From: Chloroflexota bacterium
GTDB lineage: Bacteria; Chloroflexota; Limnocylindria; Limnocylindrales; CSP1-4
Direction: 5' to 3'
Length of the DNA: 7,429 bases
NCBI GenBank assembly: GCA_021789355.1
Contig: JAJYJR010000285.1
Coordinates: 1 to 7,429 of the forward strand
Position numbers and translations under genes: made by a program. Numbering within the stretch: the first letter of the stretch is position 1; the number at the start of each line of letters is the position of its first letter. Of the stretch, positions 1 through 7,429 are shown in pieces. The notes beneath the pieces were generated by a model that made no database searches, was not told the origin of the DNA, and was given only the letters and a program-made list of their open reading frames with translations.

Positions 1-217
1 TGGGGCCCTCGGTCGTCGACACGAGGGCGGAGTGTAGCGCGTCACTGGCCCTGTGCCGCGACCCTCTCACGGGCTGCACCTGTGGGCGGGCGTCGAGCCC
101 GATCATCTCGGAGACGTAGCCGCCCTCCACGTTGTATTGCAGCGCATTGCCCCCCTGGGGAGAGACCCCGGCTTGCCTGAGGAGCCGCAACTCCCTGTGT
201 CTGGGGCATCGGGGGCG
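1..217. other. Left-edge stretch without an assignable gene
   Basis: No recognisable gene lies in this stretch. On the minus strand one frame stays open from about 190 to the left edge and reads plausibly (it includes GNALQYNVEGGY and SEMIGLDARP) with good third-position GC. It has no convincing start: an in-frame TTG at 190-188 abuts AGGGAG with no spacer, and an in-frame ATG at 106-104 lacks a ribosome site. On the plus strand a short open frame ends with TAG at 115-117. Either could be the end of a gene lying outside the window. I recognise neither. Confidence 0.3.
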
Positions 218-249
218 GGCAGGAGGGCCGGGAGACCGGCCCTCCTGCC
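218..249 (-). terminator. GC-rich hairpin terminator of the secreted repeat-protein gene
   Basis: Positions 218-231 and 236-249 form a perfect 14-bp stem around a four-base loop (GAGA on the plus strand, TCTC on the minus strand). It begins about 20 bp beyond the stop codon of the leftward gene ending at 270. There is no T-tract on either side, which is common for terminators in high-GC actinobacteria. The structure is seen directly; its terminator role is inferred from position. Confidence 0.7.
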
Positions 250-269
250 GAGCGCGCGAGGCCGATGGT

Positions 270-2699
270 TCAGTACTTGATCGTGTTGGAGTAGTCGGAG
301 TCGGTGCCTGGGCCGAACTTGTTGACGGCAGCGACGGTGAAGGCGTACGTGCCGCCGCCCGAGAGGGCGCTATCGGGAACCGTGAACGTGAGCTCCGTGC
401 TCCCGGTGTCAAGGGGCGACGACGACACCAACGTGTAGGTGCCCCCGCCCTTACCGTGCCCGTAGCTGTACACGTTGACGAGGTAGTCGGTGATCGCCGT
501 CCCCCCGTCATTCGTGGGTGCGCTCCACGTCAGGACCACCGACTGGGTGGCGGTCTTGCCGTGCCCGGTCTTCTGGATGGTGGCGACCACGTTCGTCGGC
601 GCCGCCGGCGCGCCGAGCGCCGTCAGGATCACGTCGGTGGGATTCATTGCGCCCGATGGGGTGACGTACGTGACGAGGAACGAGTAGCCGTCCACCGTGA
701 GGATCCCGCCGTTCGGAGCGTTCGCGAACGCGCCGAAGAACCAGGGGGTCTGGAACACGTCGAAGGTGGTGCCGGGCGTCGGCGCGTAGGACGGATCGAC
801 GGTCACGTCGAGGTTCCCGTACAGGTTCGCTCCGCCCGTCGAACCGGACGACACGAGCTGGGAGTACCCGCTGCCCGGCGTCGTGCCGGCGATGTGGATG
901 CCGAGCGTCGATCCGGTGCCGATGTACACGAACCCCTCGGCGGTGAGCGTGCCGGGGTGGGAGGCGTCGGCACCGACGATGACCGTCCCGGAGCTCCGGG
1001 AGGTCAGGCCGTCCACGGTGCCCGTTCCCGCGAGGGTCGCCCCCGCGTCGACGGTGACAGATCCGAGCGCCTGCGAGACCGCGAGCGTCCCCGCGACCAC
1101 CTCCGTCGTGGCGGTGCTGCTCGAGTTCGAGAGCGTCACGGTGCCGGTCAGACTGGCGGTTCCCACCTGGAGCGAAAGGCCCGTCACGGGACCCGAGACC
1201 TCGAGCGCATCACCAGCAGCTGCCGCGAGCGTGCCCGTCGTGTAGGAGGAGGTGCCCGCGGTGATCGCCCCGCACAGGGTCGCCGTGCTGCCCGTGCCGG
1301 TCACCTCGACGAGGCCACGCGGGATGGCGATCGGCGCGGACAGGGTCATCGTGCCGTCGAGTTGCAGCACCCCGTCATTAGACGAGGTCCCGACGGTCAC
1401 GCCGCTCGTCGCGCCGAGGGAGGAGGCGGCCTTGATCAGCAGGGTGCCGAAGCCGAACGTCGCCGTGGAGCCGGTGTAGGTGTTGCCGGACGCGCTGGTC
1501 GGCGCGAGTGTCACGGTGGCGCCGGAACCCGTGTAGACGGAGACGTTAGCCGCTCCCGCGAGGGTCTCGGTCACGGTGAGGGACGAGCTTGCGGTGAGCT
1601 GGAGCGTGCCACCGCCGACGGAGTCCGTGATGGTGCCGCTGCCGGTCGTGGCGTGGATATTCTGGTCGTGGCCGTGCAGGTCGAGGGTCGCCCCGGCCAT
1701 GACATTGACCGCACCAACGGTGCTGACCGCGTTATTGGCGCCTATCTGCAGGGTGCCATAGTCGACGGTCGTCGAGCCGGCCCACGAGTTGGAGTTGCTG
1801 ATGACCGTCCCCGTGACGCCGGTCAGTACGACCGTGCCGGTCCAGCCGCTCTGGCCCACGGTCACCGAAGCGGTCGAGCCATTCTGCTCCACGGTCCCCG
1901 GGACCTGGAGGACCGCCCCGGTCGCGGCCGCGAGTGTGCTGCTTCCGTTGAGACTGACATCCCCGCCCCAGGTCGCGGTGCCGCTGCCGGTGGCCTCGAG
2001 GGTACCGTCCAGGCCCAGGGTGACGCTGTCGGGCACGCTCACGCCGGCGTCCAGCGCCACCACGCTGCCGTTCGACGCTGAGACGTAGGCGGTGCCCAAG
2101 GCAGCGCTGTTCCCGACCTCGAGGGCCCCACCGTCGACGTAGATCGACGCACTGAGGGTGGTGCTGTTGTTCGCCGACAGGGTGAGGGTGCCCGTCCCAC
2201 CCGACGAAGAGTTGACGTAGAGGACGTAGGAGGCCGACAGCGTGCCGCTCATCTCGAGAGAGGCGCCCGTCGCGACCTCGACGTCCAGGTCGGAACTCGT
2301 GCTCGCCGCGGAGACATGGGCCGCGATCGTCGAGCTGCCGCTCGTCGCGTCGATCGCGACGCCGGTGGTAGCACCCGAGAGGGTGAGCGTGTAGGCCCCG
2401 CCCAGGGTGTACGAGCCCTGCAGCACGATGCTGTCCACCGAGAGGTCGGCGGTCAGTGCCAGCGCGGATCCGCTCGCGGGCGCCGTGGCCGGGAAGACCA
2501 GCTGCGCACCGTCCAGCGAGGTGCAGTTGCTTCCGGATGCAGGGATGTAGTTGGCGAAATCGTTCAGGTCGGTGGCGCCGCTCGCGCCGTCCCACGTGCA
2601 CACGTCGCCCGTCGCCGCCCGTGCCGCGCCCGGGGTCACCCCGAGCAGCGAGGCAACGAGGACGGCGACGACGCCGGCACTGCCGATCAGCCTTCGCAT
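270..2699 (-). CDS. Secreted autotransporter-associated beta-strand repeat protein with C-terminal fibronectin III domain
   Basis: An 809-residue secreted protein of unknown substrate, probably an extracellular or surface-associated beta-solenoid. Residues 1-28 are a signal peptide (MRR, hydrophobic core to LLGVTPG, then ARA before ATGDVC). The mature N-terminus has Cys34 and Cys59 in the C-W...N-C...LVFP pattern seen at the start of actinobacterial proteins of this kind. Residues from about 60 to 640 are Ser/Thr/Gly/Ala-rich beta repeats, several matching the PATR pattern (for example NTYTGSTATFGFGTLLI and TTVDYGTLQIG). Residues about 640-695 match the closing strand module (GTTFDVF, GAFANAPNGG, DVILTAL). 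Residues about 697-809 form a fibronectin III domain (PTNVVAT, VVLTWSAPTNDGG, AVNKFGPG). The chosen ATG has AGGGAG six bases upstream; the frame extends 31 codons further, but those residues would mask the signal peptide. No outer-membrane barrel, LPXTG motif or C-terminal membrane helix is seen, so release into the medium or non-covalent attachment is likely. The repeat family is clear; the biological role is unknown. Confidence 0.92.
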   Translation of the reverse strand: MRRLIGSAGVVAVLVASLLGVTPGAARAATGDVCTWDGASGATDLNDFANYIPASGSNCTSLDGAQLVFPATAPASGSALALTADLSVDSIVLQGSYTLGGAYTLTLSGATTGVAIDATSGSSTIAAHVSAASTSSDLDVEVATGASLEMSGTLSASYVLYVNSSSGGTGTLTLSANNSTTLSASIYVDGGALEVGNSAALGTAYVSASNGSVVALDAGVSVPDSVTLGLDGTLEATGSGTATWGGDVSLNGSSTLAAATGAVLQVPGTVEQNGSTASVTVGQSGWTGTVVLTGVTGTVISNSNSWAGSTTVDYGTLQIGANNAVSTVGAVNVMAGATLDLHGHDQNIHATTGSGTITDSVGGGTLQLTASSSLTVTETLAGAANVSVYTGSGATVTLAPTSASGNTYTGSTATFGFGTLLIKAASSLGATSGVTVGTSSNDGVLQLDGTMTLSAPIAIPRGLVEVTGTGSTATLCGAITAGTSSYTTGTLAAAAGDALEVSGPVTGLSLQVGTASLTGTVTLSNSSSTATTEVVAGTLAVSQALGSVTVDAGATLAGTGTVDGLTSRSSGTVIVGADASHPGTLTAEGFVYIGTGSTLGIHIAGTTPGSGYSQLVSSGSTGGANLYGNLDVTVDPSYAPTPGTTFDVFQTPWFFGAFANAPNGGILTVDGYSFLVTYVTPSGAMNPTDVILTALGAPAAPTNVVATIQKTGHGKTATQSVVLTWSAPTNDGGTAITDYLVNVYSYGHGKGGGTYTLVSSSPLDTGSTELTFTVPDSALSGGGTYAFTVAAVNKFGPGTDSDYSNTIKY

Positions 2700-2704
2700 G
2701 GTTC

Positions 2705-2711
2705 TCTCCCT
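2705..2711 (-). promoter_or_regulatory. Ribosome binding site deciding the repeat-protein start
   Basis: On the minus strand AGGGAGA lies just before AACC-ATG (start at 2699). Its position fixes the start at the signal-peptide methionine rather than at the longer open frame beginning at 2792. Confidence 0.75.
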
Positions 2712-2842
2712 GGGCCTCACGCGCTGCGGGTCGGTCTCGCCAGTGGCTCGGTACGGTCCTTCAGGCGGCCGGGGCAACGGACCGCACGTCAACGCCTCCC
2801 GCTGATCTGGGGCCAGCGTCGTCTGGGGGCGGGTCGCCTGGC

Positions 2843-2920
2843 TACCGTACTGGTACGGGGTCGGGTACGGTATCCGGACCCGTATACGGGGGCGCGATAC
2901 CGTACCGGCTACAGTACTGG
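2843..2920. promoter_or_regulatory. Cluster of GGTACGG/CCGTACC half-sites in nested palindromes (putative operator array)
   Basis: Within about 78 bp of the divergent intergenic region are many copies of a GTACGG/CCGTAC core. CCGTAC (2845-2850) and GTACGG (2853-2858) form an inverted pair with a 2-bp spacer. GGTACGGTATC (2864-2874) and GATACCGTACC (2896-2906) form a perfect 11-bp inverted repeat. The perfect 12-bp palindrome CCCGTATACGGG (2879-2890) sits almost exactly at its centre. A weaker CAGTAC lies at 2912-2917, and an outlying GGTACGGT at 2750-2757. The sequences are seen directly. A regulator-binding role for one or both divergent genes (2699 leftward, 2962 rightward) is inferred. The half-sites also resemble actinobacterial -10 elements (TAnnnT), so promoters may be embedded in the array. 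Confidence 0.55.
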
Positions 2921-2949
2921 CCCCGGTGGCGGCCGGCCGGCCCCGGCCC

Positions 2950-2955
2950 TACCGT
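2950..2955 (+). promoter_or_regulatory. Candidate -10 element for a leaderless transcript
   Basis: TACCGT fits the actinobacterial TAnnnT -10 pattern and ends six bases before the ATG at 2962, so transcription would begin at or next to the start codon. No Shine-Dalgarno sequence precedes that ATG, which fits leaderless translation. No clear -35 hexamer is seen about 17 bp upstream. Confidence 0.4.
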
Positions 2956-2961
2956 TCGGGC

Positions 2962-3507
2962 ATGGACCACAGTGAGCGTCCGGGTGCGCCGATCCCCGCC
3001 GGCGCGCGAGGCCGGGACGAGCCGGCCCCGGCACTCGCGGACGCCGGCGACATCGTGGCGCGGGCGGCGGCGGACCAGGCCGCGGCCGACGAGGACCGCC
3101 TGCGGTTCCGCCGGGAGGGACCCCCCACGCTGCCGCCCGACGCGCGCATCGCGCCGCTGCTCGAGCCCGATGAGCACCTCGTCGCCCTGCGCCACGCCGC
3201 ACTGCTCGACCGCCGCGAGCCCGGCCCCGGCACTCGGCTGACGCCCGGTGTGGCGGGCGCCCTCTACATCACGTCACGGCGTCTCGTGCTGATCGGCCGC
3301 CTGACGCTCTCGTTCGAGCTCGACGCGATCGAGGATGCCGTCGTCTCGGGCGAGCGCCTCCTGCTCGTCCTGCGCGAGGGGCACGGCGTGGTCCTCCAGG
3401 TCGCCCAGCCCCGCCTCCTCGCGGTCGAGATCGCCGCCGCCCGGGCGTACGCGAGGTCCGCCCGGGTCCCCGGAGCGAGTGCCGGTCCTCAGCCGGCGAC
3501 GCGGTGA
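2962..3507 (+). CDS. PH-like (bacterial pleckstrin-homology-like) domain protein
   Basis: A 181-residue soluble protein with no signal peptide or membrane segment. Residues 1-60 are a charged, Ala/Arg/Asp-rich, probably disordered N-terminal part. Residues about 68-165 look like a small beta-sandwich plus C-terminal helix: EPDEHLVALRHAALL, then GALYITSRRLVLIGR, LTLSFELDAIEDAVV, ERLLLVLREGHGVVLQV and a final helix LAVEIAAARAYAR. The phrase 'LYITSRRLVLIG' is typical of bacterial PH/GRAM-like domains, which bind lipids or proteins; the actual ligand cannot be told. The ATG at 2962 was preferred over a GTG at 2926 because of the nearby TACCGT -10 and the better coding pattern. The gene converges on the response-regulator gene, and the last 19 bp of the two overlap tail to tail with no terminator between. 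It is transcribed away from the GGTACGG array, which may control it. Gene reality is well supported; the domain call is moderate. Confidence 0.8.
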   Translation: MDHSERPGAPIPAGARGRDEPAPALADAGDIVARAAADQAAADEDRLRFRREGPPTLPPDARIAPLLEPDEHLVALRHAALLDRREPGPGTRLTPGVAGALYITSRRLVLIGRLTLSFELDAIEDAVVSGERLLLVLREGHGVVLQVAQPRLLAVEIAAARAYARSARVPGASAGPQPATR

Positions 3508-4160
3508 CGCCGGGCCGCCTCGGCCCGGTTCCGCGCCCCGAGCTTGCGCAGGATGCTGCTGACGTGCATCTCGACGGTGCGTGGCGAGAGCGTGAGCGCC
3601 TCGGCGATCTCGTGATCGGTGAGCCCCCCGGCCAGCCGCTCCAGCACCTCGGTCTCGCGGACGGTGAGCGTGGCGAGCGCGGGATCCGCCGGATTCGTCA
3701 AGCCCACACCCGGGCGCGACGTCTCGACCAGGCGCTGGACGAGGCGCGCCGCCGTCCGGTGGCTCATCGCGAGCTCGCCCTCCCAGGCCGCCCGCACGGC
3801 GCGCGCGAGCCCCTCGACGGAGAGGTCCTTGGTGAGGTAGCCCACGGCACCGAAGCGCATCGCCTCGACCACATGCCGGTCCTCGCGCGAGGCGGTCAAC
3901 ATCACGATGCGCGTGTCGGGCAGCCTCGGCGCAAGCTCGCGCACGAGGGCGACCCCGTCCATGCCCGGCAACTCGATGTCGAGGAGCAGCACGTCGGGGC
4001 GCACCTGCGGGGCGAGCTCGAGGGCCTCCTCCGCGCTCGCGGCCTCGGCGACCACCGCGAGGTCGGACACGCTGAGGGCTTGGCGCACGGCGCTCCGCAC
4101 CAGCGGGTGATCATCCACGATCATGACGCGGATGCGGGCGGGAGCGGCCTTGGTCGTCAT
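3489..4160 (-). CDS. NarL/FixJ (LuxR-type) response regulator
   Basis: A 223-residue cytoplasmic transcription factor that would receive phosphate from the kinase encoded just upstream. The receiver domain is residues about 11-128: acidic pair Asp16-Asp17 (MIVDDHPLV), phospho-acceptor Asp61 (LLLDIELPGMDG), switch Thr89 (VMLTAS) and conserved Lys111 (YLTKDLS). Residues about 165-218 are a LuxR-type four-helix HTH (LTVRETEVLERLAGGLTDHEI, then SPRTVEMHVSSILRKLGARNR). All key residues are present, so it looks functional. The ATG overlaps the kinase TGA as ATGA and has no ribosome site of its own, which implies translational coupling. Its reading frame stays open far upstream across the kinase gene, but that extension is an out-of-frame shadow of the kinase. 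The 3' end overlaps the convergent PH-like gene. Its targets are unknown. Confidence 0.95.
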   Translation of the reverse strand: MTTKAAPARIRVMIVDDHPLVRSAVRQALSVSDLAVVAEAASAEEALELAPQVRPDVLLLDIELPGMDGVALVRELAPRLPDTRIVMLTASREDRHVVEAMRFGAVGYLTKDLSVEGLARAVRAAWEGELAMSHRTAARLVQRLVETSRPGVGLTNPADPALATLTVRETEVLERLAGGLTDHEIAEALTLSPRTVEMHVSSILRKLGARNRAEAARRHRVAG

Positions 4161-5413
4161 GCCGGAGCGACTTCGACCGCCGCGGCCTCGACGCGCGGCG
4201 CGGCGCCCCCGGGCACGACGAGCCTGACGCGCGTCCCCCTCCGAGGCGCCGACTCGATCTCGATCTGGGCGCCGATCTGGGCCGCGCGTTCCCGCATCCC
4301 GGCGAGGCCGTAGGCGGTGTCGCCGATCGATCCGGGATCGAAACCCCGCCCGTTGTCGCGGACCTCCAGGACCAGCCGGCCGTCGTCGACAGCGCCCCGG
4401 ACCCGCACCACCGTGGCGTCGGCGTGACGCCGCACGTTGGTGAGGGCCTCCCCCACGATGCGCAGCGTCTCGGCCTCGGCGCGGGACGACAGGGCCGGCA
4501 GGTCGGCGCCGCAGTCGAACTCGACGGAGAGCCCGAAGCGGTCCTCGAAGTCGTCGAGCGAGCGCGACAGCAGCTCCCGGAGGGACTCGCTGGTCCCCCA
4601 CGCCGCACGCATCGTCGCCACCGCCTCGCGCGCCTCGGCCATGCCCGCATCCACGGCTGCGGTCACCTCGTCGGTCAGGGCGCGCGCCTCGGGCCCGAGC
4701 TCGGGCTGCGTCGCGAGACGCGTCACCTTGAGTTTCGCCAGCCAGAGGTCCTGCGCCAGGCCGTCGTGCAGCTCGCGGGCCAGCCGCTCGCGCTCCGCCG
4801 CGGCGGCGAGCGCCCGCTCCTGCACCATGAGCTGCGCCTCGATGCGCCGCAGCTCCGTGATGTCGTGGAGCAGGACGAGCCGCCCCATCGGCCGGCCCTG
4901 CCAGTCGGACAGCGGCGTGCTGCTGACCTGGCAGGTGCAGCTCCCGTCCTCCGTCTCGTAGGAGGCTTCCCCCGAGGTGTCGGTGTCGACCACGCTGCGT
5001 GCGAGCTCCGGAGAGGCCGCCAGCGCCGTCGCCGCGGGCTGGCCCAGGACGCCGCGACCTCCACGTCCAACCAGGCGCAGGGCGGCCTCGTTGGCGTCGG
5101 CGATCCGGCCGCCGGCGTCGAGCACGAGCATGGCGTCGGGCATGCGCGCGAGGATCGTCTCGCGCGCGACCGGCACGAGGTCGAAGAGGCGAAACCGGAA
5201 GAGGGCAACCGCGTACATCACCGCCACGCAGTCGAAGCCCACGACGCCCGACACGATGTTCGGCACGTACACGATGTTGAAGACGCCCAGGGGGTAGAGC
5301 ACGCGGAGCGCTACCTGGCCGACCAGGATCAGCGCGACCGGCATGCGGTGGGCCGGGGAGCGCACGAACAGGAAGAGGAAGACCGCCGTCGAGAGGACGA
5401 ACAGCAGCACCAC
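4157..5413 (-). CDS. C-terminal part of the 7TM histidine kinase (PAS, HisKA_3, HATPase)
   Basis: This is the portion after the in-frame TGA, opening at a GTG 19 codons downstream of it. It holds helices 5-7, the PAS domain, the HisKA_3 dimerisation/phosphotransfer helix (ARELHDGLAQ) and a complete ATPase domain (EALTNVRRHA, DNGRGFD, GLAGMRERA, GTRVRLVVP), then an Ala-rich tail. Internal restart at 5413 could give a truncated but catalytically complete kinase with half its sensor. However, the GTG has only a poor purine-rich stretch (GGCGGG) directly next to it, so efficient restart is doubtful. The stop overlaps the response-regulator ATG by ATGA. Confidence 0.75.
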   Translation of the reverse strand: MVLLFVLSTAVFLFLFVRSPAHRMPVALILVGQVALRVLYPLGVFNIVYVPNIVSGVVGFDCVAVMYAVALFRFRLFDLVPVARETILARMPDAMLVLDAGGRIADANEAALRLVGRGGRGVLGQPAATALAASPELARSVVDTDTSGEASYETEDGSCTCQVSSTPLSDWQGRPMGRLVLLHDITELRRIEAQLMVQERALAAAAERERLARELHDGLAQDLWLAKLKVTRLATQPELGPEARALTDEVTAAVDAGMAEAREAVATMRAAWGTSESLRELLSRSLDDFEDRFGLSVEFDCGADLPALSSRAEAETLRIVGEALTNVRRHADATVVRVRGAVDDGRLVLEVRDNGRGFDPGSIGDTAYGLAGMRERAAQIGAQIEIESAPRRGTRVRLVVPGGAAPRVEAAAVEVAPA

Positions 5414-5428
5414 CCCGCCGGCGAACGC

Positions 5429-5461
5429 CAGACCCAGGGGCGTTCGAGTGCCCTGGACCTG
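5429..5461 (-). other. Stem-loop just downstream of the in-frame TGA in the kinase
   Basis: In the minus-strand transcript the arms at 5461-5451 and 5439-5429 pair over 11 bp (nine Watson-Crick and two adjacent G-U pairs) around an 11-base loop. The stem begins nine bases after the TGA (5473-5471). Such a structure could affect termination at the TGA. It could also be chance in GC-rich coding DNA. The loop does not begin with a G, unlike the bacterial SECIS consensus. Confidence 0.35.
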
Positions 5462-5470
5462 CCCGCCGTT

Positions 5471-5863
5471 TCACCACACACTGCTCCAGACAAGGCGGCC
5501 CCCGTCCACGAGGTCGAGCCCGACGTGGGCGATCGTCACGCCGGCGAGGACGGCCACCACGGGACGGGTCAGCCAGCGCTCGAGGCCCGCATACTCGAGG
5601 GCGAACCAGAACGCCAGGACCACGCTCGGGATCGTCAGCGCGTCGCGGAGGAGAAACCAGGCTCGCTGCGTGGCAATGTCGGTCGCGGCGACCTCCGCCG
5701 CGCCCCCGAGGCACCACACCGCCAGCAGCAAGGCCACCAGGGCGAGCGGGAAGGCACCCTTCGTGGTGGCGCGCCGTCGCCAGAGGTACAGGGCGATCGC
5801 CCCGATGAACGCGGCGGACCCGAGCGTGGGCCACAGCAGCGGGTCGTAGTGGTAGCCGCTCAC
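5471..5863 (-). CDS. N-terminal part of the 7TM histidine kinase (up to the in-frame TGA)
   Basis: If the TGA acts as a stop, this is a 130-residue membrane protein with four predicted helices and no catalytic domain. The helices are WPTLGSAAFIGAIALYLW, ALVALLLAVWCLGGAAEVAA, LTIPSVVLAFWFALEYAG and PVVAVLAGVTIAHVGLDLV. The pattern (WRRR after helix 1, EVAATD and ALEYAG) fits the first four helices of the 7TM sensor module of histidine kinases. On its own it would be non-functional as a kinase. The start is GTG at 5863. Its GTGA overlaps the TGA of a dubious upstream minus-strand frame (6240-5860), which I do not accept as a gene. Confidence 0.7.
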   Translation of the reverse strand: MSGYHYDPLLWPTLGSAAFIGAIALYLWRRRATTKGAFPLALVALLLAVWCLGGAAEVAATDIATQRAWFLLRDALTIPSVVLAFWFALEYAGLERWLTRPVVAVLAGVTIAHVGLDLVDGGRLVWSSVW

Positions 5864-6430
5864 CTGCGTCCGCCGACCTCCCGCCGCGCACGCCTACCGA
5901 GGGGGCGCACGCGCAGATGCCGGCCGCAACAGACGGGGCTACCCATCGCAGGCAGCCTGCAACCCGCAAGGCAACCTGTAAAGAGCCGACGGTCGCAACC
6001 GCCGCGCCGATCCGGACATGCATTGGAAAGGCTCGCGTGACCCCACATCCGCCCGACGCATCGCGTCGAAGGAGACGTTCGAACGATTCGTCCAGCCTGA
6101 GGCGTCGAATGCTTGTGGATGTCGAGGATGAGCCGCGGACCGCGGATCTCGACCCATCTCGCGCCATTGGCGCCGCAGCGCGGGCACGACCACCGCTGGG
6201 CAAGGCACCTGCTGGAGCAGGTCAGGGCAGCCGGGCTCACCCGGAAGGAGACCCGCGTGGTCGCGGACCGGCCGCTCTCGATCTTCTGATTGCCGGCGTG
6301 AGGTCACGACGAGTGGCCGGCCCCGCGACTGCCGGCGGACCGGGGATCTGCCACCGAAGTTGCGCCCGGCGCGACGAGCCGACGCTCGTACTCGTCGCGC
6401 GGCAGCGGGACCCATTGCACCACACCCCGT

Positions 6431-6622
6431 ATGCCGGTGGCACAAGGGGAAATCCTGGTCGTGGCCGCGGTCGTGGCGCTGATCGCTGTCGTGCGTCTCG
6501 TCCTGCTGGCGGTTCGCGTGCTGCCCCTCCAGGAACGCGCACAGACTGGGCGAACCGTGGACTTGCCGCGCTGGCCGACGGCCTTGCACTCGGGGTCACG
6601 ATCAGCAGCTGTTGGGCTGTGA
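6431..6622 (+). pseudogene. Possible truncated slipin/SPFH-like membrane protein (N-terminus only)
   Basis: A 63-residue frame starting MPVAQGEILVV. Residues about 8-28 form one strongly hydrophobic helix, followed by LAVRVLPLQERA, which recalls the segment just after the membrane anchor of slipin/stomatin-like proteins (typically ...VRVL-x-EYER...). The similarity ends right after ERA, and the rest (QTGRTVDLPRW and on) does not look like an SPFH domain. No ribosome site precedes the ATG. It is either a truncated remnant, a small single-helix membrane protein, or chance. The slipin link is a resemblance only. Confidence 0.25.
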
Positions 6623-6685
6623 AGCCGCGTGACACTTCACCACCGCCCCGGGGGCCGGGGACCTGCCGAGCGTGGAACGGGCTGG

Positions 6686-6691
6686 TACCAT
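6686..6691 (+). promoter_or_regulatory. Candidate -10 element upstream of the tRNA fragment
   Basis: TACCAT fits TAnnnT and ends nine bases before the first base of the tRNA-like sequence at 6701, a spacing usual for tRNA promoters. No good -35 is seen. It supports the idea that the tRNA 5' half still sits behind its original promoter. Confidence 0.3.
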
Positions 6692-6700
6692 AGCCACCGC

Positions 6701-6737
6701 GCCGACATAGCTCAGTGGTAGAGCAGCTGTTTCGTAA
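6701..6737 (+). tRNA. 5' half of tRNA-Thr(CGT), truncated after the anticodon loop
   Basis: These 37 bases match a canonical tRNA from position 1 to 38: acceptor strand GCCGACA, T8-A9, D stem GCTC/GAGC around AGTGGTA, A26, anticodon-stem strand GCTGT, and loop TTCGTAA with anticodon CGT at 6733-6735 (threonine). The expected 3' strand ACAGC, the T arm and the acceptor complement TGTCGGC are not found downstream. A 5-bp anticodon stem can be forced with ACGGC, but it leaves a six-base loop, and no proper T arm or acceptor pairing follows. The gene therefore appears broken at the anticodon loop, the classical crossover region for tyrosine integrases. An integrase begins 191 bp downstream. ACG codons could still be read by a tRNA-Thr(UGU), so loss need not be lethal. 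Confidence 0.6.
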
Positions 6738-6847
6738 CGGCGACCTCCACGCTTCGAGCGCTCGGTAGCCCTCCCGACCACCAGCCGTTGTGGTACCGCC
6801 TCCGGCACACCCCAACATCTTGTGGTTTCCCCCGCGGTCGCCCGCCG

Positions 6848-6904
6848 TGTGAACCGCGCGCCGCTCACCGCTAGAGCAGCTAGCTTCGCGGGGACAGGTT
6901 CACA
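6848..6904. repeat. Nested inverted repeats upstream of the recombinase (candidate attachment or operator site)
   Basis: The outer arms TGTGAACC (6848-6855) and GGTTCACA (6897-6904) are a perfect 8-bp inverted repeat. Near the centre GCTAG (6870-6874) and CTAGC (6880-6884) flank AGCAG as a perfect 5-bp inverted repeat. Spacers between inner and outer arms are 14 and 12 bp, so the arrangement is nearly concentric. It ends 23 bp before the recombinase start. This would suit either a recombination core with flanking sites or an operator over the integrase promoter. Confidence 0.45.
6863..6881 (+). repeat. Second D-arm-like copy matching the truncated tRNA
   Basis: These 19 bases align without gaps to 6710-6728 of the tRNA fragment with 16 identities, sharing GCTCA and the 10-bp TAGAGCAGCT (6872-6881 versus 6719-6728). 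The similarity covers the D arm and the first strand of the anticodon stem. TTCG follows at nearly the same distance in both copies. The copy sits inside the nested dyad, and its surroundings do not fold as a whole tRNA. It may be the element's copy of an attachment core or a tRNA relic. Confidence 0.45.
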
Positions 6905-6915
6905 GGGCGGCCCAC

Positions 6916-6920
6916 GGAGG
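6916..6920 (+). promoter_or_regulatory. Ribosome binding site of the recombinase
   Basis: A perfect GGAGG seven bases before GTG at 6928 fixes the recombinase start. Confidence 0.8.
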
Positions 6921-6927
6921 ACCGCAC

Positions 6928-7429
6928 GTGGGGCGCACCCTGGGCGAGGAGATCGACGCCTACCTGGCCGACTGCCGGCGGCGCCAGCTGCGCCCGACGA
7001 CGCTGCGCGCGTACCGCCAGGCGCTCGACGACCTCGCACGCAGCTTCCCCGAGCCCGATCCGCTCCTCGAGGCGCTCACGCTCGCCGCCGGACGCCGCTG
7101 GCAGGATGCGCGCACGGGGCACCTGTCCGCGCGCGCCATCGCCGATCGCACCCGCGCGCTGCGCACGTTCGCCGCGTGGATCGCCGCGGAGGGCGACCTG
7201 GCCGCCGATCCGTTCGCCCGCCTGCGCCCGCCGCGCGTCGACCGCCGCCTGCGGGTGGTGCCCACCGACGAGGAGCTGACCGCCGTCGTCGACGCGGTGA
7301 CCCCCGAGGAGCAGGTGCTCCTGCTGGTGCTCGCGGGGACCGGCATGCGCGTGGGCGACCTGTGCCGGCTCACCCTCGAGGACCTCGTCGGGGACACCCT
7401 GCTGCTGCGCGACACCAAAACCCGCCAGG
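6928..7429 (+). CDS. Tyrosine recombinase/integrase (5' part, cut by window end)
   Basis: The first 167 residues of a site-specific tyrosine recombinase that would cut and join DNA at paired core sites. Residues 1-100 are the SAM-like core-binding domain (TLGEEIDAYLADCRRRQLRPTT, later ALRTFAAWIAAEGDLAADPF), followed by a linker RLRPPRVDRRLRVVPTDEEL. The catalytic domain starts near residue 113 and includes the first catalytic arginine, Arg141, in LAGTGMRVGDLCRLTLEDL. Lys164 in RDTKTRQ is at the usual beta-hairpin lysine position. The His-x-x-Arg, His/Trp and Tyr motifs would lie past the edge. There is no separate arm-binding domain before the core-binding domain, so it resembles XerC/D-like or simple integrases more than lambda-type ones. 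The start is GTG with a good GGAGG. A tRNA fragment and a dyad lie directly upstream, which suggests it belongs to an integrated element extending to the right. Confidence 0.93.
   Translation, partial: MGRTLGEEIDAYLADCRRRQLRPTTLRAYRQALDDLARSFPEPDPLLEALTLAAGRRWQDARTGHLSARAIADRTRALRTFAAWIAAEGDLAADPFARLRPPRVDRRLRVVPTDEELTAVVDAVTPEEQVLLLVLAGTGMRVGDLCRLTLEDLVGDTLLLRDTKTRQ

Follow-up and report, generated by a model that had tools for sequence, protein, structure and literature searches.

The window, the whole stretch of 7,429 nucleotides analyzed here, carries on its minus strand a two-component operon in which the frame of the sensor kinase is interrupted by a stop codon. The kinase frame extends from 5863 to 4157, starts with GTG and ends with TGA, and its sole internal stop is codon 131, a TGA at positions 5473..5471 (the reverse complement of 5471–5473) lying in the context GTG TGG TGA AAC GGC. 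Strand, frame, and codon reading thus confirm the in-frame TGA that the first-pass annotation had reported. The part up to and including the stop (5471..5863, minus strand) comprises the GTG start, 130 codons, and the first portion of the 7TM region, and the part past the stop (4157..5470, minus strand) codes for the remainder of the 7TM region, a PAS domain, HisKA_3, and HATPase_c. The next gene of the operon codes for a response regulator with Response_reg and GerE/LuxR-type domains in Pfam (3489..4160, minus strand). Its frame is intact, and its ATG overlaps the terminal TGA of the kinase in an ATGA, as previously annotated.

The G+C content around the kinase is close to 70–75%, and spurious long frames are present in the window, e.g., an overlapping frame of 904 codons. 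Long frames are therefore uninformative here, an open frame on either side of the stop says little by itself, and the case for a split kinase rests on homology. Residues 14–117 of the first part match positions 3–105 of the HisKA_7TM profile (52.8 bits), and the second part matches positions 139–224 of the same profile with 21.2 bits, which is under the model cut-off of 28.6. The second part also matches PAS_4, HisKA_3 (residues 226–289 of this part, 4604..4795, minus strand), and HATPase_c (residues 336–420, 4211..4465, minus strand), all over their Pfam cut-offs, in agreement with the catalytic region proposed from the letters alone. The two pieces of HisKA_7TM (the second below cut-off), HisKA_3, and HATPase_c lie in one frame only when the stop is ignored, and translation table 11 divides them. 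The presence of HisKA_7TM on both sides of the stop, together with the match of the read-through frame to an intact protein at 564 of 568 positions (see following), bears out the claim that the kinase frame continues across it.

In domain order and in the overlap with the regulator gene, the kinase resembles the HisKA_7TM/PAS/HisKA_3/HATPase_c kinases that are paired with LuxR-type regulators (NarX–NarL-like systems), from which it differs by the stop at codon 131 and by a 5′ flank that is not shared with relatives. Matches to NCBIfam kinase equivalogs are far under their cut-offs, hence no named equivalog applies. Next to the operon, a c-di-GMP-II-GAG riboswitch (2720–2808, minus strand, 72.4 bits for a cut-off of 40) lies directly 5′ of the likely ATG (2699) of a repeat/fn3 protein. 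Four related loci were scanned for the riboswitch, and three have it (L001, 4876–4964; L002, 3236–3320; L004, 2446–2534). Its position suggests control by c-di-GMP of a putative surface protein adjoining the two-component operon. Our literature search found nothing on c-di-GMP-II riboswitches in Chloroflexi, nor on histidine kinases in Limnocylindrales.

The kinase frame with TGA read as W was used as the query of a protein search (7,995 candidates scored, E of 1e-10), which gave 541 relatives, the best 120 of which were aligned with MAFFT. The closest, P0002 (ENA, 568 residues, intact, and known here from its protein only), shares 564 of 568 residues with the query and carries Trp at 131, this codon counting among the identities only by being read as W in the window; one of the four differences is merely the GTG start shown as V. 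P0002 ends at the window's terminal TGA, so its prediction presumably did not take TGA for Trp. With the same reading of the codon, P0003 agrees at 507 of 562 positions and carries Trp too. Among the matches listed, Trp occupies the column in the 10 closest relatives and in 34 of the best 48, one of the relatives (P0006) being named Candidatus Limnocylindrales by its source. Over the best 120 of 541, there are 59 Trp, 25 Leu, and 36 other residues or gaps (seven Ser, seven Val, four Ala, four Phe, three Tyr, three Ile, three gaps, and one each of Glu, His, Thr, Met, and Asn), and Cys is absent. Trp at 131 thus appears to be usual near the window and not required across the family. The homologue alignment called for by the first-pass annotation supports Trp in the ten closest sequences, but with 59 of the best 120 it does not extend to the relatives at large.

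A similar picture is found in DNA. Nine distinct loci cover codon 131, and it is TGG in six of them (L001, L002, L003, L015, L016, and L017), CAG in the second kinase of the L002 genome (L012), GCG in L013, and CTG in L014. L004 and L005, in which the codon is not covered, and L006 and L007, without a match at the threshold used, were left out of this count. None of the nine has a stop at codon 131 or anywhere in the matched stretch, so the recurrence of TGA that would have hinted at recoding is not seen. The five best loci are contigs of Chloroflexi metagenome-assembled genomes (MAGs), which, with the name given to P0006, suggests as host an uncultured bacterium that is probably a member of the Chloroflexota near Limnocylindrales. 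Wider scans detected the kinase in nine of 126 genomes of the order (E of 1e-80) and, at E of 1e-60, in 18 of the 177 genomes of the class. Among the 20 class-scan matches listed, none has an internal stop, 11 of them ending short of codon 131. A scan of viral contigs matched five stretches, none encoding a relative of the kinase.

Apart from the stop, there is no evident damage in the gene. Leaving the stop codon out, the NG86 estimates of dN/dS between the window and its relatives (0.088/0.334 for L001, 0.100/0.322 for L002, and 0.144/0.419 for L003) resemble those among the relatives themselves (0.118/0.327 for L001–L002, and 0.143/0.490 and 0.157/0.426 for the others). Estimates for the first part, of at most 130 codons, scatter more (0.079/0.247 for window–L001, 0.076/0.184 for window–L002, and 0.087/0.280 for L001–L002). 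The G+C content at third codon positions is 93% both before and after the stop. The window has two private residues and P0002 has two, each being omitted from the other's comparison, and nine further close sequences have between zero and nine. Two of the differences from P0002, E337 and M346, were considered as signs of decay and rejected, as both are seen in other relatives (11 of 60 and three of 60, respectively). In conclusion, stops, substitution rates, and private residues reveal no clear second lesion or relaxed constraint in the kinase gene, which implies that the stop is either young or not real. The first-pass annotation took a simple pseudogene to be one in which homologues all have Trp and the gene decays elsewhere. 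Trp is indeed found in the ten closest relatives, but in only 59 of the best 120, and clear decay is missing, a combination expected of an allele that arose very recently, or of an error.

Short or broken copies do occur among the relatives. Using the 130-residue part as query, four short proteins were found at E of 1e-10 among 365 candidates, none of which ends at W130. P0122 (174 residues) passes the codon with Trp and departs from the kinase in its tail, P0124 (131 residues) ends elsewhere in the alignment, and P0125 has 214 residues. P0123 (122 residues, ending GLDSTAAP) groups two member sequences from eight contigs, one source naming a Chloroflexi MAG. It tracks the kinase up to GLD and then ends with STAAP. 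At the same place, shifting the reading of the L002 DNA by one frame yields SAAAP followed by a stop, and such a stop in the shifted frame is absent from L001, L003, and the window. From its protein letters, P0123 looks like a copy with an independent frameshift near residue 118. P0050 (418 residues) begins at an internal Met; it may be broken as well, or truncated by the limits of its contig (1,810 bases).

The 5′ flank of the kinase also differs from that of relatives. Homology of the operon with L001 is 82% across positions 151–5864 of the window, and in each of the eight loci extending to the 5′ end of the gene it stops within about ten bases of the kinase start codon. Taken alone, homology ending near a start codon would be usual. 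When the 160 bases 5′ of the start were compared among seven relatives, using pairwise local scores against 100 shuffles each, four of the seven (L001, L002, L003, and L017) share a flank, with scores from 56 to 260 against shuffle maxima of at most 28. Because the flanks of L003 and L017 are much alike (260), the four amount to about three lineages. The flanks of L001 and L002 give an alignment of 132 bases at 80%, those of L013 and L015 have a weaker mutual match (44, for a shuffle maximum of 27), and that of L014 has no clear match among the seven relatives compared. For the flank of the window, the scores stay within the shuffle range in six of the seven comparisons (17 to 20) and reach 29 with L017, just above the shuffle maximum of 28 for that pair. 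A longer comparison gave 34 bases in L001, in the opposite direction and inside a tRNA-Phe gene, and 25 in L003. In coding sequence, L001 and L002 are no closer to each other than to the window, and yet the flank that they share is not found in the window, whose own flank is thus probably the derived one.

The region concerned (5864..6927) would be explained by a rearrangement removing the old promoter or by a junction within a chimeric contig. It includes a 5′ tRNA-like piece (6697–6737, plus strand) that ARAGORN does not call a tRNA. Its matches in relatives lie at or next to tRNA genes, the gene being tRNA-Thr(CGT) in five of the six loci scanned. About 190 bases after this piece, the start of a tyrosine-recombinase gene (6928–7429, plus strand) runs off the window, and the two are possibly the edge of an integrated element. 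The DNA upstream of the kinase has a match in 112 of 126 genomes of relatives, mostly, among the matches listed, to the short tRNA-like stretch, and hence these matches say little on the origin of the flank. A rearrangement, if true, would mean that selection on the kinase is relaxed, and a chimeric contig, if true, would raise the odds of a base error.

The causes listed in the first-pass annotation were a nonsense mutation, programmed read-through or recoding, and a base-call error. The relatives fit the first and the last, and recoding finds no support. Systems known to recode UGA (programmed read-through, selenoproteins, and UGA-to-Trp codes) share with the window an in-frame UGA in a conserved frame. 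They differ from it in that here the stop is not conserved, no specific signal was found, Cys is absent from the column, and TGA is used as terminator. UGA is often the leakiest stop and is near-cognate to tRNA-Trp, and as Trp is the usual residue at 131 in close relatives, background or programmed leakage could give the usual protein, i.e., some full-length kinase and thus two products. A review puts stop-codon read-through at 10^-3 to 10^-2 (PMC10057733), and the accessible text of PMC13092985 has no occurrence of Chloroflexi, Chloroflexota, or Limnocylindr-. We nevertheless regard this reading as very unlikely, given that none of the nine loci has the stop and none of the four short relatives ends there. 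Moreover, in a fold test on one 61-base stretch per copy, starting two bases 5′ of the TGA, the window has a z of −0.95, and two TGG copies are at least as good (−1.39 and −1.15). The hairpin past the TGA is unremarkable and forms in TGG copies too, and in this comparison no stimulatory structure is specific to the stop-bearing copy. An elaboration in which a leaky, strain-specific UGA read as Trp yields the fragment and a little full-length kinase, so that read-through sets the dose of the sensor while the promoter region has been replaced as well, is one that we consider very improbable. That TGA codes for Trp genome-wide, or that the gene is split into two functional products, could draw on the place of the TGA where Trp is usual and on internal GTG codons (151 and 152) that could start the second part. 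Both are extremely unlikely, because four frames of the window, those of the kinase, the regulator, the PH-like protein, and the repeat protein, end in TGA, release factor 2 (RF2) is over its curated cut-off in six of seven related genomes, and no relative examined is divided at codon 131. Genome-wide reassignment had been judged improbable from the same TGA-ended genes, and rightly so, but the PH-like identity of one of them has no Pfam family over its cut-off behind it. Insertion of selenocysteine has a negligible probability in our view, even if the machinery is probably present in the group. In six of seven related genomes (G002, G003, G012, G015, G068, and G094), tRNA-Sec is over the Rfam cut-off, with full-length matches of 69.5–75.1 bits, which suggests that the group has selenoproteins. 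Because some match is found in all 14 control genomes, five of them over cut-off, only matches over cut-off count. Together with RF2, these matches indicate that UGA is a terminator and possibly also a selenocysteine codon in the group, and nothing marks codon 131 for selenocysteine: Cys occurs in none of the best 120 of 541 relatives, the closest among those listed have Trp, and there is no hairpin specific to the stop-bearing copy. No SECIS family is found among the Rfam matches of the window up to E of 1, which is weak evidence, since to our knowledge bacterial SECIS elements are poorly covered in Rfam.

The main rival is that the source contig is wrong at this base, through base-calling, damage, or assembly, and that the real gene is intact, a serious possibility even if we hold it rather doubtful. 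Outside codon 131 the gene appears intact and under constraint, the near-identical P0002 lacks the stop, and a chimeric contig would also explain a flank without the DNA common to the four relatives. On the other side, a rearrangement in the genome would account for the flank as well, given the tRNA-like piece and the beginning of a recombinase gene seen there, which is at most indirect evidence against an error. We favor, with a probability of roughly 0.6, a recent, strain-level, single-base nonsense allele of the sensor kinase. Against it count the lack of a second lesion in the gene and, again, the possibility that the unshared flank comes from a chimeric contig. As in ordinary nonsense alleles and young pseudogenes, there is one stop, Trp in the near-identical copy and in close relatives, no stop in nine loci, and no clear decay; the difference is that the reality of the base rests here on the assembled sequence. 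Unlike established pseudogenes, the kinase is without further lesions or relaxed constraint. Most likely, then, the stop is an ordinary lesion, or an error, and not a special decoding signal.

If the base is real, as we infer, translation of the nonsense allele would mostly end after residue 130, leaving a membrane fragment without the catalytic domains. Weak internal starts or background UGA read-through would be the only sources of the part past the stop, and the strain is therefore probably without this kinase activity and its signaling, the regulator being intact. The apparent frameshift of P0123 and the unshared 5′ flank of the window suggest that loss or altered expression of the kinase is tolerated. 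As a decoding question the case has little weight, and it warns against inferring recoding whenever a short contig shows a single in-frame TGA. If real, it would be a small example of strain-level loss of a sensor kinase, beside a changed operon front, a relative having a lesion of apparently independent origin.
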